28,213 bases of DNA, taken from a virus. A program made the position numbers and the translations under genes. The notes beneath the pieces were generated by a model. The model saw only the letters and a program-made list of their open reading frames with translations. It did no database searches and was not told where the DNA came from. The stretch is from positions 1 through 28,213 of IMG/VR virus record IMGVR_UViG_3300002144_000048, one strand, 5' to 3'. Positions 8,839 to 16,207 of the stretch are shown one piece after another (position 1 is the stretch's first letter; every line of letters begins with the position of its first letter).

Positions 8839-9714
8839 ATGATAGAGAGAATTTACATACCCACTGTTCGAAGATGCGACAAACAAATTACATTCGAGAA
8901 TCTTCCTAAAGAACTTCAAGAACGAGTTGTTATGGTTATCGAAGCAAGAGAACGACATCTTTATAGTTATCCTTGCGAGTACTTGAAAATACCTGAAAGC
9001 ATAGTGGGTACTTGGACACAGTTAGCACAGACTAGATTGTTCATTCACAAACACGCTGGTGCGATTAAGTATTGTGTTGCTGATGATGATCTACCGATTA
9101 AACGAAGAAACTCTAAGTATTGGACTGAAACGTCAAATATGGAAACGTCTAAGCGATATGCTACTCAAGAAGAAATCCTGTTGATGTATGAGACTGTGGA
9201 TAAATGGTTTGATGAACCGTCTATAGGAGTTATTGGTCTTTCTGATCCAGGCACTCCACCTCAAAATAATGAGTATGTTGATACCGTAGATGTGTATGGT
9301 TATGTGTTTTATGACGGCAGAATGATATCGAAGATTATCGATGATATAGATATTTGCTCATTGAGGATAGCAGAAGATGTACTCTTTCTCTATGAGATAC
9401 TGTCTAGAGGAATAAACACTAGAAGATCTAATGAGTGGATGTATGATAACAGAAGTGCGTCTGATAAAAAGCTTGCAAAATCTAGGGTAGTCTGGACAGA
9501 AATGTATAAAGATGGTGATGAGAAGCCAGCTAATTACTACCAAAGTAAAGAGCATTACGATGCTATGAGATTCATCCAAGAGAGGTATCCCCACGGCGTG
9601 AAGATTTTTGAAAAAGATGGAAAGATGAAAAACGTTAAGTACTGGAAGAAAGTGTACAAACCTTTGGGATCTGATGGCACACCCAGCGCATCCCTTGAGA
9701 GCTTTTTCTCTTGA
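8839..9714 (+). CDS. Putative GT-A-fold glycosyltransferase with C-terminal sliding-clamp-binding tail
   Basis: A 291-residue protein. The N-terminus RIYIPTVRRCDKQITFENLP followed by RVVMVIEARE, then TWTQLAQTRLFIHKHAGAIK and the acidic YCVADDDLP (DDD at 82-84), matches the layout of the TET-associated glycosyltransferase-like protein at 11254 (strand, RAR-helix, DDN). I infer a nucleotide-sugar-dependent GT-A fold with DDD as the metal site. The last eight residues, ASLESFFS, match six of eight positions of the polymerase tail ASLEDFFG, indicating clamp docking. Acting on DNA at the replication fork follows as inference. A glycosyltransferase acting on another substrate is the main alternative. 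It has its own strong promoter. Confidence 0.6.
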   Translation: MIERIYIPTVRRCDKQITFENLPKELQERVVMVIEARERHLYSYPCEYLKIPESIVGTWTQLAQTRLFIHKHAGAIKYCVADDDLPIKRRNSKYWTETSNMETSKRYATQEEILLMYETVDKWFDEPSIGVIGLSDPGTPPQNNEYVDTVDVYGYVFYDGRMISKIIDDIDICSLRIAEDVLFLYEILSRGINTRRSNEWMYDNRSASDKKLAKSRVVWTEMYKDGDEKPANYYQSKEHYDAMRFIQERYPHGVKIFEKDGKMKNVKYWKKVYKPLGSDGTPSASLESFFS

Positions 9715-10918: not shown

Positions 10919-11254
10919 ATGTCAAGTGAAGTTGAAGAGTCAGCAGAATACGAAAACTTCTTAGGTAAGAAAGAAGAACTTCCTGAATCAGCAAATCTTG
11001 CTGACTTCTTAGGTATTCCTGCAGAAGAAGCCGATGATAAAGTATTTTGGCAGAAACATTGGCAAGGTATGCCAGAGTTTAATCAAGAAGAGAATCCACC
11101 ACACCGTAAGTTGATTATAAGCTTTCGTAGTGAAGAAGACTATCAAGAGTTTGCAACTCTGATTGGTCAAAAACTCACAAAGAAAACTAAGAGTGTCTGG
11201 CATCCAAAGCTAGATCGTGATGCTAATACACTGAAGCGGTGGGTAGAAGAATAA
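10919..11254 (+). CDS. Hypothetical protein with two FLG repeats, 111 aa
   Basis: A 111-residue protein immediately upstream of the TAGT-like gene (TAATG). The N-terminal half is acidic and holds two similar short segments, SAEYENFLGK and SANLADFLGI. The C-terminal half is a small alpha/beta domain (RKLIISFRSEEDYQEFATLIGQKL followed by KSVWHP) of a type often met in phage proteins near DNA-modifying enzymes. ATG 10919 follows the upstream TAA directly, with GGAG at 10909-10912. Possible adaptor protein; function unproven. Confidence 0.7.
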   Translation: MSSEVEESAEYENFLGKKEELPESANLADFLGIPAEEADDKVFWQKHWQGMPEFNQEENPPHRKLIISFRSEEDYQEFATLIGQKLTKKTKSVWHPKLDRDANTLKRWVEE

Positions 11255-12153
11255 TGACAAATCCCAAATATCCAGTTTATATTATTTCAAAAGGTCGACA
11301 TGAATCTATGTTGACCTCTAGATCGTTGGCACGTATGAAAGTGCCTCATTATATTGCTATTGAGCCGCAAGATGAAAAACTATACGACAAAACACTTGAT
11401 AACTTTGGCATTCGACCATATGTTACATTACTAGTTGCTCCGTTTAGTAATCATGGCGATGGTCCTGGTCGTGCTAGAAACTGGTGTTGGGATCACTCTA
11501 TCGCTCTTGGTGCAGAACGTCACTGGGTACTAGATGATAATATCGCAGACTTTTATCGTCTACAACATAACTTGCGTATTCGTGTTGAGAGTGGTGCTAT
11601 CTTTCGTGCATCAGAAGACTTTGTTGATCGCTATGAGAATGTACCAATCTCTGGGTTTCAGTATCGTTTCTTTATTGCACCAAACACTAAGTACCCACCT
11701 TTTGTAAAAAACACACGTATATATTCTACGCTTTTGATTGATAACAAATGCAAGTTTCGCTGGCGTGGTCGCTATAATGAAGACACTGACATTTGTCTAC
11801 GTGTACTTAAAGATGGTGACTGTACTATTCAGTTTAATGCATTCTTGCAAGGCAAAGCAGCTACACAGTCTGTCAAAGGTGGTAATACCTCTGAGTTCTA
11901 TCACGCAGAAAATACTGAAAATGAAAACTTTGAAAAGTCTGGATTCAATAGTCTGGGTACTGTGAACAAGTCGCAGATGCTTGTAGATATGCATCCTGAT
12001 GTTGCACGAATGGTATGGCGTTTTCGTCGTTGGCATCACCATGTCGATTACTCTTCTTTCAAACCAAATCAACTGATTCTAAAATCTGGTGTTGTGATTC
12101 CAAAAGGCGTCAATAACTATGGTATGAAGTTGACTACAAACTTTAAAGGCTAA
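11254..12153 (+). CDS. TET-associated-type glycosyltransferase (TAGT family)
   Basis: A 299-residue GT-A-fold glycosyltransferase. Diagnostic parts: VYIISKGRHESMLTSRSL strand-helix at the N-terminus, PHYIAIEPQ, GRARNWCWDHSIALGAERHW, the DxD-type VLDDNI (D94, D95), and YNEDTDICLRVLKDGDCT (E176, D177, D179) near the catalytic site. This pattern is that of phage TAGT proteins, which were predicted to glycosylate hydroxymethylated or otherwise modified bases in DNA. No TET/JBP oxygenase is in this window, so any acceptor base would have to be made elsewhere. The start is TAATG; ORF extension to GTG 11239 is not favoured. Family call good, DNA as acceptor is inference. Confidence 0.75.
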   Translation: MTNPKYPVYIISKGRHESMLTSRSLARMKVPHYIAIEPQDEKLYDKTLDNFGIRPYVTLLVAPFSNHGDGPGRARNWCWDHSIALGAERHWVLDDNIADFYRLQHNLRIRVESGAIFRASEDFVDRYENVPISGFQYRFFIAPNTKYPPFVKNTRIYSTLLIDNKCKFRWRGRYNEDTDICLRVLKDGDCTIQFNAFLQGKAATQSVKGGNTSEFYHAENTENENFEKSGFNSLGTVNKSQMLVDMHPDVARMVWRFRRWHHHVDYSSFKPNQLILKSGVVIPKGVNNYGMKLTTNFKG

Positions 12154-12245: not shown

Positions 12246-12770
12246 ATGACAAAAAATGTTTCACAACGAGATTCGACTTTTAAAGGCGGCATTCAAAAAG
12301 GCACAACTGCTTTTGATGTTGCTAGTAAAAAACTAGATAAACAATTGAAAGAGTCTTTTGATGTATTGTCTAAATCTTATTCGCAATATGAAGTTTGTAA
12401 ACAGTTTACCAAAGAAATGAAAATCAAATATATTGGTGATGATTGTTTTGGCTTTGCTCCTGATGGCGGCGCATGGTTTAAAAATGGCAAGTTAGTTGCA
12501 GTGTTTGAAGCCAAGAAACAAGGCAAACTTGGTAATGCTAATGAACGCTGGTATGATAATGCCGACACGGCAAAATATATAAACAAAGACGTTGTTTATG
12601 TTACCTTCTGTTCTGGTGCTGGTGCTGCGCCTGGCGAGTGTCTTGATAAGATGCGAAGAAAAGCTACTATCACTAAAGGCAAAAACTTTAAGTTTTTTAT
12701 GAATCCAGTTGGTTTTACCGACAATGAAGTTCTGTCGGTTATGGAAAATGTGTTGAAAGAAATAGTATGA
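12246..12770 (+). CDS. EcoRI-like type II restriction endonuclease (PD-(D/E)xK)
   Basis: A 174-residue nuclease. The catalytic core reads FAPDGGAWFKNGKLVAVFEA followed by KKQG: P72-D73-G-G, E88-A-K90, matching the PDGG and EAKHQG of EcoRI (D91, E111, K113). The following GNANER (96-101) matches GNAIER of EcoRI, whose N141, A142, E144 and R145 read the AATT core. EcoRI itself is 277 residues, so this is a compact form with a shortened loop between the two blocks and no obvious C-terminal arm. The stop overlaps the methyltransferase start (ATGA). Strong shared promoter. Alternative: a stand-alone host-degrading nuclease with no sequence-matched methylase. Confidence 0.75.
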   Translation: MTKNVSQRDSTFKGGIQKGTTAFDVASKKLDKQLKESFDVLSKSYSQYEVCKQFTKEMKIKYIGDDCFGFAPDGGAWFKNGKLVAVFEAKKQGKLGNANERWYDNADTAKYINKDVVYVTFCSGAGAAPGECLDKMRRKATITKGKNFKFFMNPVGFTDNEVLSVMENVLKEIV

Positions 12771-13693
12771 AACCATTATATATGTGGGCAGGCGGTAAGA
12801 ATAAGATGATTTCAAAATACTTACTGTCTCCTGGCATACCTTTGGCTGGATATGATACGTTTGTTGAACCATTCTTTGGTGGTGGAGCTATGATGATTTG
12901 GGTTAATGAAAACAATCCAAACATCAAACGCTTTGTTTTAAATGATATCAAAGAAGAACTCGTAGGAATATATGTTGCCATAAAAACAGATGTTGATAAC
13001 TTTATTAAAAAGTTAGATGCTCTATCAGCTTTATACATACCATTAGATAAAGCTGAACGTAAAATATTCTTCTATGATCTAAGAACACCTTACGCCACAA
13101 ACACCCACGGTCTTAATAAAACAGACGAAAGCGCAACTCTTTATTTTCTTATGAAGACTGCTTTCAATGGTATTTGGCAAAGTACCAAACGTGCAAATGG
13201 TAGATTTGATACTCCTTTTGGATTGGGTAATCAAAAGACAGTTGTTTACGATAAAGATAACGTTTTAGAATGGCACCAGTTTTTACAGAGGGTCGACATC
13301 ACTTGTGGTGATTGGAAAGACTCATGTAAGATTGTTGAAGAGAAAGCATTCTACTTTATGGACCCTCCTTACAGAGATAGCTTTACAAGTTATGGCGAAG
13401 GCTTTACCGATGCAGATCATCAAACTCTAATAGAGTATTGTGTACAAAAAGATTTGCAAGGTAATATTGTATTTTACTGTAATAGGGATGATGCACAAGA
13501 TGGCTTCTTTGATGCACACAAAGCACATCTAAACGACAGCTACTTTGACATTAAGTATACTGCTGGGCGTAGAGCCACTGAAAAAGACAAAGATGGCAAT
13601 CCTATCCTAGACGAAGATGGTAACAATAGACGTACAGCAAAAGCAGCAAAAGAAATATTGCTGCACACAACTCTTGCCATTAAAAACATCTAA
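12767..13693 (+). CDS. D12-class (Dam-like) DNA adenine methyltransferase
   Basis: A 308-residue N6-adenine methyltransferase of the alpha/D12 class. It begins MKPLYMWAGGKNKM (WAGGK, the AdoMet-binding start), has motif I FVEPFFGGGAMM, the class-typical YFLMKTAFNGIW and the catalytic motif IV DPPY (199-202). The C-terminal part has a charged insertion (EKDKDGNPILDEDGNNRR) followed by KEILLHTTL. All key residues are present. The class includes Dam, DpnM and EcoRV methylase; the target cannot be read from the sequence. Coupled by ATGA to the EcoRI-like nuclease, it most simply is its protective partner. Confidence 0.9.
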   Translation: MKPLYMWAGGKNKMISKYLLSPGIPLAGYDTFVEPFFGGGAMMIWVNENNPNIKRFVLNDIKEELVGIYVAIKTDVDNFIKKLDALSALYIPLDKAERKIFFYDLRTPYATNTHGLNKTDESATLYFLMKTAFNGIWQSTKRANGRFDTPFGLGNQKTVVYDKDNVLEWHQFLQRVDITCGDWKDSCKIVEEKAFYFMDPPYRDSFTSYGEGFTDADHQTLIEYCVQKDLQGNIVFYCNRDDAQDGFFDAHKAHLNDSYFDIKYTAGRRATEKDKDGNPILDEDGNNRRTAKAAKEILLHTTLAIKNI

Positions 13694-13708: not shown

Positions 13709-14662
13709 ATGACACATATTATGGTAACAGGTGGTGCAGGATTTATTGCGTATCATCTCATCAACTCTTTAGTTGAAAATGGATATGAGGTATCAGCATT
13801 TGATAGCTTCAATCATTACTATGATCCAGAACTAAAGAGAGATCGTGCTGATAAACTAAAAGACCTTGGTGTTGATGTAGCGTTTGTTGATCTAAAAGAT
13901 CGACCAGCGCTTATAAAGTTTGTTGAACATCATAAGCCAGATATCGTAATGCACTTAGCTGCTTATGCTGGTGTTCGCCATTCACTCAAAGATCCACAGA
14001 CTTATATTAATAACAACATCACTGGTACTCAAAATCTGATTGATGCTTGTAACAAAGCTGGTGTTGATAAAGTTGTCTATGCATCCTCGTCATCTGTTAT
14101 GGCTGGTAATCCTCTTCCGTGGAATGAAGAAGAGAAGTGTGGTCATCTGTTGAATCCCTATGGCTATTCTAAGATAACAAACGAAAATCAGTTTATGAGT
14201 AGTAATATTAAGAGTGCTATTGGGCTAAGATTCTTTACTGTCTATGGACCATGGGGTCGACCAGACATGGCTCTATTTGATTTTACTAAAAACATTGTTG
14301 CTGGTAAACCCATTCAGTTGTACAACTATGGTAATATGATTCGAGACTTTACCTATATTGATGATATTGTCCAAGGTATTCGACTCATCTTTGACGAGAT
14401 ACAGAAGCACGATAGTGTCAAAGAAATATATAATATTGGCTACGGAGAGCAAGTAAAACTAGTTGATTTCGTTGAACATATCGAAAATAACTTAGATAGA
14501 AAATCTATTAGAGATTTAGTACCAATGCACCCGGCAGACGCTCAGGCGACTTGGTCAGACACTACCAAGCTACAAAAACTAGGCTATAACCCAACTACTT
14601 CTATCGCAGAAGGAGTGCAGAAATTTATTGAGTGGTACAAAATGTATTATAATATCAACTAA
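13709..14662 (+). CDS. NAD-dependent UDP-glucuronate 4-epimerase-like protein
   Basis: A 317-residue extended short-chain dehydrogenase. Rossmann motif TGGAGFIA (8-14, last Gly replaced by Ala), FDSFNHYYDPELK, MHLAAYAGVRHSL, YASSSSVM, catalytic Y151xxxK155, and the strongly diagnostic GLRFFTVYGPWGRPDMALF and IRDFTYIDDIVQGI. These are hallmarks of epimerases turning UDP-glucuronate into UDP-galacturonate. With the UDP-glucose dehydrogenase at 15386 it would give a two-step UDP-glucose to UDP-galacturonate route. The A14 substitution may alter NAD binding only mildly. It starts 15 bases after the methylase stop, so it shares its operon. Confidence 0.85.
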   Translation: MTHIMVTGGAGFIAYHLINSLVENGYEVSAFDSFNHYYDPELKRDRADKLKDLGVDVAFVDLKDRPALIKFVEHHKPDIVMHLAAYAGVRHSLKDPQTYINNNITGTQNLIDACNKAGVDKVVYASSSSVMAGNPLPWNEEEKCGHLLNPYGYSKITNENQFMSSNIKSAIGLRFFTVYGPWGRPDMALFDFTKNIVAGKPIQLYNYGNMIRDFTYIDDIVQGIRLIFDEIQKHDSVKEIYNIGYGEQVKLVDFVEHIENNLDRKSIRDLVPMHPADAQATWSDTTKLQKLGYNPTTSIAEGVQKFIEWYKMYYNIN

Positions 14663-15385: not shown

Positions 15386-16207
15386 ATGAAAACTAAAATC
15401 GCAATCATTGGGCATGGCTTTGTTGGCAAAGCTGTTGAGTATGGATTTACACATCCAGGCGTAGAACTTCATATCGTTGATCCAAAGTACGGAACAACAG
15501 TTGATGATCTGCCTGTCTGTAACTACTATTTCGTTTGTGTCCCAACACCATTTGGTTCTGACGGCACGATTGATACGACTATTCTAGATGATGTGATGGA
15601 AAAACTTGTCGCAGTCAACGGCATAGTTATTATTAAATCAACTGTCACGCCAGATGTTATTACTAAATGGCACAATCATATCGTTTACAATCCAGAGTTC
15701 TTGACTGAGAAATCTGCTAACGAACAGTTTGTTAGCCCAGAGTTTCATATCTTTGGTGGGTTTGAAGTGTACACAGATGAGATAGAACGGCTGTATAAAG
15801 AGTTCTCATTATGTACACCATGCCCAGCATTACATATGTCTCTTGAAGAAGCCAGCTTTGTAAAGTATACTATCAATAGTTTTCTTGCTATGAAAGTAAC
15901 ATTCTTCAATCAACTATACGACACAGTAAAAACAACTCGTGCTAACTACGGCACTATTATTAAGGCTGTTGGCTTTGATAAACGTATTGGACCTAGTCAC
16001 ACAAAAGTACCAGGCTTTGATAAACGTCAAGGCTACGGTGGTGCTTGCTTTCCAAAAGACACATCGGCGTTTGTTAGTTACAGTAAACGCTTGACATTAT
16101 TAGAGAAATGTATTAAAATAAACAATACATATCGCTCACAGTACGAACTAGATGAAAGAGAGAAAGAACAGCATGTCGATTATGGACAAACTAAAGAAGA
16201 ACTCTAA
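15386..16207 (+). CDS. UDP-glucose/GDP-mannose dehydrogenase-like protein, C-terminal domain missing
   Basis: A 273-residue protein. Rossmann motif IIGHGFVG (G9, G11, G14), FVCVPTPF, IIKSTVTPD, YNPEFLTE, the central helix FVKYTINSFLAMKVTFFNQ and the active site GYGGACFPKD (C221, K224, D225). These are all UDP-glucose 6-dehydrogenase signatures. Full-length family members have 390-450 residues; here the UDP-binding C-terminal domain is replaced by a charged 30-residue tail. It would oxidise UDP-glucose to UDP-glucuronate if the truncated form is active. It overlaps UvsX by 35 nt. GDP-mannose dehydrogenase activity is an alternative. Confidence 0.8.
   Translation: MKTKIAIIGHGFVGKAVEYGFTHPGVELHIVDPKYGTTVDDLPVCNYYFVCVPTPFGSDGTIDTTILDDVMEKLVAVNGIVIIKSTVTPDVITKWHNHIVYNPEFLTEKSANEQFVSPEFHIFGGFEVYTDEIERLYKEFSLCTPCPALHMSLEEASFVKYTINSFLAMKVTFFNQLYDTVKTTRANYGTIIKAVGFDKRIGPSHTKVPGFDKRQGYGGACFPKDTSAFVSYSKRLTLLEKCIKINNTYRSQYELDEREKEQHVDYGQTKEEL

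Follow-up and report, generated by a model that had tools for sequence, protein, structure and literature searches.

Two adjacent genes in a viral stretch of 28,213 bases (IMG/VR virus record IMGVR_UViG_3300002144_000048; hereafter, the window) very probably form a phage-encoded type IIP restriction-modification (R-M) system of the EcoRI kind, which would recognize bare AATT and would probably be used to cut the DNA of the host. The AATT target is supported by two independent lines, namely the statistics of phage genomes and the conservation of the residues with which EcoRI reads AATT. Restriction enzymes are textbook bacterial defences, and here lytic phages, several of which infect Synechococcus, appear to have conserved a branch of the best known one as a weapon. 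None of the components is new in itself, neither EcoRI-family enzymes nor D12 methyltransferases nor R-M systems encoded by viruses. No report of this phage system was found in the open-licence PMC literature. As far as our searches there reach, what is new is a family of EcoRI-like enzymes that, in the collections searched, occurs only in phages; the reading of its AATT specificity from depletion of the site in genomes; and a lineage apparently self-protected by erasure of the site.

The nuclease and its relation to EcoRI

The first gene is an ATG-start ORF (positions 12246..12770 of the window, plus strand) predicted to encode a compact, 174-aa restriction endonuclease of the EcoRI family and PD-(D/E)xK type. 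The protein matches phrog_2400 (E 1.8e-29), a phage family without an assigned function, and no usable match to it was found in Pfam, NCBIfam, or PADLOC. Three sequence blocks that an earlier note on this DNA had equated with the catalytic and AATT-reading residues of EcoRI occur in the order described there. PDGG (residues 72-75; 12459..12470, plus strand) aligns with P90-G93 of EcoRI, with D73 in the place of D91; EAKKQG (residues 88-93; 12507..12524, plus strand) supplies E88, K90, and Q92 as counterparts of E111, K113, and Q115; and GNANER (residues 96-101; 12531..12548, plus strand) supplies N97, A98, E100, and R101 as counterparts of the AATT-reading N141, A142, E144, and R145. The second block had been quoted as EAK-K-QG; it is present, but its actual sequence is EAKKQG.

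The pattern is not a chance one, because the motif residues do not vary among 60 aligned homologues with 33-73% identity to the window protein. All 60 share P72, D73, E88, K90, Q92, G96, N97, A98, E100, R101, W102, and N105, a set that includes all seven catalytic and recognition counterparts (D91/E111/K113 and N141/A142/E144/R145). Within the third block only position 99 varies, being isoleucine in 48 of the 60; the majority form is GNAIER, exactly as in EcoRI, and the GNANER of the window is a minority form. In addition, three homologues carry KHQ, as EcoRI does, rather than KKQ. Pairwise codon comparisons gave dN/dS values of 0.02-0.17, and the nuclease is under strong purifying selection.

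Homology to EcoRI extends beyond these blocks. A profile of the EcoRI family was prepared from seven plasmid-borne enzymes, which were located with a piece of the EcoRI sequence and then aligned; the counterparts of D91, E111, K113, Q115, N141, A142, E144, and R145 were invariant in all seven. When the phage family was compared with this profile by hhalign, the match had a probability of 97.6%, an E value of 3.9e-12, and a score of 84 over 167 columns, as against scores of about 20 or less for 30 column-shuffled profiles and 16.6 for a reversed profile. Homology to the EcoRI family is well supported, since the shuffled controls fall so far below the match. Moreover, in a search of the PDB with the phage family profile, EcoRI chains ranked first (E about 0.01). 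The profile comparison also bore out the earlier remark that much of the loop between the second and third blocks is missing, and on sequence grounds the protein is related to EcoRI but compact, the long loop of that enzyme being absent. Against the Pfam EcoRI family (PF02963) the window protein gave no match, and 7 of 63 homologues matched weakly (best E 0.027), none of them close to the gathering cut-off. As this cut-off was not reached, the nuclease is named here EcoRI-like, a separate branch, rather than a member of the Pfam EcoRI family.

Structure prediction, suggested in the same note as a check, gave a mixed outcome. The AlphaFold (AF2) model of the nuclease was confident (pLDDT 87, pTM 0.80), and the order of its core, alpha-beta-beta-beta-alpha-beta, is that of a PD-(D/E)xK core, with PD preceding one strand and ExK lying within the next. 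A Foldseek search of the PDB returned the restriction enzyme BbvCI as its best match (E 0.008, TM below 0.35) with Rossmann-like noise beneath it, but EcoRI was absent from the best 50 matches.

The partner methyltransferase and its linkage to the nuclease

The stop codon of the nuclease overlaps the start of the second gene in an ATGA junction (12767..12770, plus strand). This second gene (12767..13693, plus strand) encodes a Dam/D12-class N6-adenine DNA methyltransferase of 308 aa, the predicted cognate AATT methylase. It matched PF02086 with an E value of 1.5e-30 (107 bits, cut-off 22) and TIGR00571 with 144 bits (cut-off 114.85), and PADLOC too assigned it to the Dam/D12 adenine methyltransferases. 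Its FVEPFFGGG and DPPY motifs are intact, its nearest solved relative is DpnM (E 1.6e-14), and dN/dS values of 0.07-0.29 indicate purifying selection. The gene overlap and the intact D12 methyltransferase that had been read from the letters were thus borne out by the sequence and by both profiles. In the GATC enzymes EcoDam and DpnM, the arginine of an NGLxR motif reads guanine. Intact partner methyltransferases that adjoin the nuclease have NG-x-aromatic-Q in place of NGLxR, a suggestive fit to a target other than GATC, which is predicted to be AATT. As a marker of AATT this motif is weakened, and it is not specific, because it also occurs in methyltransferases of a Raoultella phage and of Synechococcus phage ACG-2014f that have no such nuclease beside them.

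Relatives of the nuclease, annotated as hypothetical proteins, were found in 65 Synechococcus phage records, and at least 101 contig stretches with such relatives were found in IMG/VR, 80 of which were kept as loci. No bacterial or archaeal relative came up when GTDB species genomes were scanned twice by sequence pattern, and a plasmid collection searched for relatives of the phage type yielded none. A D12 methyltransferase lies downstream of the nuclease, or is fused to it, in 66 of the 80 viral loci, and the pairing noticed in the window is therefore one conserved across many phages. The two genes overlap or lie within about 30 bp of each other in 50 of these 66 pairs (with an ATGA junction like that of the window in 26 of the 50), are separated by an insert of about 0.9-1.4 kb in 15, and are fused in one. 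The fused pair (L051:1881-3299) is a single unbroken ORF of 472 aa with no linker; the genes are either genuinely fused or joined only by a sequencing error of a single base. Gene-sized inserts occur in S-RIM2 and about 15 contigs, some S-RIM2 isolates being free of the insert; in S-RIM2 (L002:6635-7690) the inserted gene encodes a 351-aa protein with a weak match to DUF6551. Among the 14 loci with no methyltransferase downstream, two end at a contig edge. In a contig of near-genome size (G004, 190 kb) there is no adjacent methyltransferase, but one of the same type lies about 18 kb away.

R-M systems can behave selfishly, and one reading of the locus is that it is a selfish mobile module, maintained by post-segregational killing with no gain for the phage. 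The neighbours of the locus differ from phage to phage, and the two genes are sometimes apart, as this reading would have it. Nevertheless, we consider it highly improbable: addiction has little purchase here because a lytic phage has no daughter cells to segregate, a lineage described below keeps the nuclease with no methyltransferase found, which is the reverse of what addiction predicts, and the two GTDB scans turned up no bacterial homologue.

In the window itself, the neighbours include a family B DNA polymerase, a UvsX with a T4-type C-terminal domain, and a DnaB-type helicase; these genes fit a T4-like phage, as had been supposed. Upstream of the nuclease, two genes (8839-9714 and 11239-12153) resemble TET-associated glycosyltransferases (PF20691), the first with an E value of 4e-6, which narrowly misses the cut-off, and the second with one of 1.8e-44. 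Sugar-nucleotide genes are found near them, at 13709-14662 and 15386-16207, and the phage may glycosylate its DNA as well. A separate observation concerns Synechococcus phage ACG-2014f Syn7803C8, where a small protein with the pattern PD...ELKGTKQ (L090:1482-1991) is encoded directly upstream of a D12 methyltransferase; these two genes are a candidate for a second kind of phage R-M pair.

Depletion of AATT and the predicted role of the pair

Unprotected target sites are dangerous in a phage that carries a nuclease, and palindrome counts in the phage's own genome can therefore reveal the target. In 22 nuclease-bearing contigs the observed/expected ratio of AATT had a median of 0.28 (range 0.00-0.64). 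The controls were 45 related contigs in which no nuclease is visible, namely six isolates together with UvsX relatives 10 kb or more in length; their median was 0.87 and their minimum 0.50. Most of these controls are fragments, and some may carry an unseen nuclease. Four of the nuclease-bearing contigs, at 0.59-0.64, overlap the lowest controls. Among 136 tetranucleotide classes, AATT was the best separator of the two groups (AUC 0.012; p 1.2e-10, a value that ignores phylogeny), and AATA, AATC, and AATG, which differ from it by one letter and are the products of one-step escape from AATT, were enriched. A six-base target such as GAATTC or CAATTG was rejected, as the depletion sits at the level of AATT and is not much stronger for any flanked version.

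Two further comparisons served as checks on the phylogeny-blind p value. In aligned homologous DNA, the nuclease carrier and its counterpart had 92 and 485 AATT sites, respectively, for S-RIM2, 17 and 79 for the window, and 0 and 65 for G001, a contig considered further below; TTAA, ATAT, and TATA were about equal across the comparison made for the window. Phages of the same host, WH7803, were also compared: the ratio was 0.29 in S-RIM2 and S-BM1, which carry the nuclease, versus 0.93 in S-CAM8 and 0.66 in KBS-M-1A, which do not. Host restriction does not explain the depletion, because phages of this one host differ according to whether they carry the nuclease. It could be argued that avoidance of AATT is nonetheless driven by restriction in hosts, with the methyltransferase serving to counter that restriction and the nuclease-like protein beside it having some other function. 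Many phage methyltransferases are in fact anti-restriction orphans, and CCGG is missing even from nuclease-free cyanophages, so host-driven purges seem to occur. This explanation is nevertheless quite improbable, given that avoidance of AATT is much weaker or absent in the WH7803 phages that lack the nuclease, that every catalytic and AATT-contact residue of EcoRI is kept in a nuclease under strong purifying selection, and that the total purge of AATT falls in contigs that have the nuclease and in which no methyltransferase was found.

Other palindromes are missing as well. CCGG is absent from every Synechococcus phage isolate stretch tested (L132-L138 and L113-L114; 50 kb), nuclease or not, and was rejected as a signal of the nuclease because nuclease-free isolates lack it too. 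GTAC is absent from S-RIM44 and TCGA from ACG-2014d, and in all three cases host or phage nucleases seem to have driven another complete purge of a 4-bp palindrome. A 5.6 kb UvsX relative (L251) with no nuclease in view has 3 AATT sites (ratio 0.13), a strong depletion from which a nuclease is predicted in another part of the same genome.

Taken with the conserved residues, these counts indicate that the target of the nuclease is almost certainly AATT, the specificity that had earlier been guessed from the motifs and that the genome statistics support independently. Two of the nuclease-bearing contigs have no AATT at all: G001 (111,864 bp) has 0 against 339 expected, and G003 (73,883 bp) has 0 against 233, the expectation being derived from each contig's own tri- and dinucleotide counts. 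They belong to one lineage (to which records IMGVR_UViG_3300021960_000030 and 3300033273_000208 are assigned), with nucleases 94% identical, and a further contig (G002) has an identical nuclease. No D12 or N6_N4 methyltransferase was found on G001 or G003, both of which are partial contigs, and one may be encoded on the missing sequence. It is about an even call whether the phages can protect themselves in two interchangeable ways, by methylating AATT or by erasing it completely, such that at least one lineage does without any methyltransferase and tells self by sequence composition alone.

In the reading that we prefer, the nuclease would act as a dimer, by inference from EcoRI, and would cut unmethylated AATT, while the D12 methyltransferase would place N6-methyladenine in the AATT sites of the phage's own DNA, which would thereby be spared. 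After infection, the pair would most likely cut the host chromosome, feeding phage DNA synthesis and shutting the host down, and unprotected competing phages would perhaps be cut as well. Self-protection would come from methylation of AATT, its removal from the genome, or both. AATT is thinned yet tolerated where the methyltransferase is present, which suggests that protection by methylation is imperfect; the same retained sites hint that AATT may be the target of the methyltransferase. Cleavage, the methylated site, action as a dimer, and the biological role are what we infer here.

A real R-M system could alternatively serve superinfection exclusion, with the unmethylated DNA of competing phages being cut and not the host chromosome. 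Nuclease-free cyanophages are rich in AATT (S-CAM8, for example, has 391 sites in 50 kb) and would be cut, and the patchy distribution of the pair is what would be expected of a competitive weapon. We judge this role unlikely, though the most credible of the alternatives, as an active nuclease would also cut host DNA unless the AATT of the host were methylated, and the packaged restriction enzymes of chloroviruses have been tied to degradation of host DNA and were found not to cause mutual exclusion (PMC7019647). Cutting of host DNA, the preferred role, would be a candidate explanation of how some cyanophages do so without base modification in the style of T4. More generally, the genome statistics provide, at little cost, a concrete prediction (AATT) for a family whose members carry no annotation beyond hypothetical protein, and the lineage without AATT offers a natural setting in which to test how all copies of a 4-bp word can vanish from a genome.

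Comparison with known systems

The closest comparison is with the EcoRI family itself, in which MluCI cuts AATT. The predicted phage nuclease has in common with EcoRI, RsrI, MunI, and MluCI (PF02963) the succession of PDGG, ExKxQG, and GNAxER, followed by N, as well as homology over nearly the full length and, by prediction, specificity for an AATT core. EcoRI, MunI, and MluCI have also been grouped together in a review (PMC4081073). The phage protein differs in its 174 aa, compared with 277 aa for EcoRI, in a loop between ExKxQG and GNAxER cut to 2-3 residues, in falling below the PF02963 cut-off, and in its occurrence in phages, the two scans of species genomes from bacteria and archaea having turned up no relative.

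The methylase of EcoRI (M.EcoRI) belongs to PF13651 and not to the D12 class, as the earlier note had said. The note went on to claim novelty for the combination of an EcoRI-like nuclease with a D12 partner, but this claim fails, because such a pair is present on plasmid pCP157_17 of Paracoccus marcusii, where an EcoRI-family nuclease (238 aa, PF02963 E 2.5e-16) adjoins a D12 methyltransferase (PF02086 E 2.1e-18). In hhalign the plasmid nuclease matches the phage family with an E value of 3e-9, but it is longer. Moreover, the plasmid is bacterial and has the methyltransferase gene first, whereas in phages the nuclease gene comes first, and BLASTP found no significant similarity between the pCP157_17 and phage methyltransferases. 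Dam and DpnM belong to the same D12 family as the phage methyltransferase, which scores above the curated cut-offs, and they differ from the phage partners in carrying the NGLxR of GATC enzymes rather than NG-x-aromatic-Q.

Among viruses, the R-M systems of chloroviruses (CviAII, CviJI, and others) offer the nearest functional parallel, with a nuclease that adjoins its methyltransferase, targets of 2-4 bp, and methylated virus DNA (PMC7019647). Chloroviruses differ in having eukaryotic algal hosts and in packaging the nuclease in the virion. Finally, lytic phage T4 degrades host DNA with the endonucleases DenA and DenB, its own DNA being marked by hypermodification of all cytosines; in the phages described here, the distinction between self and host would instead be made by site-specific methylation of adenine or by absence of the site.
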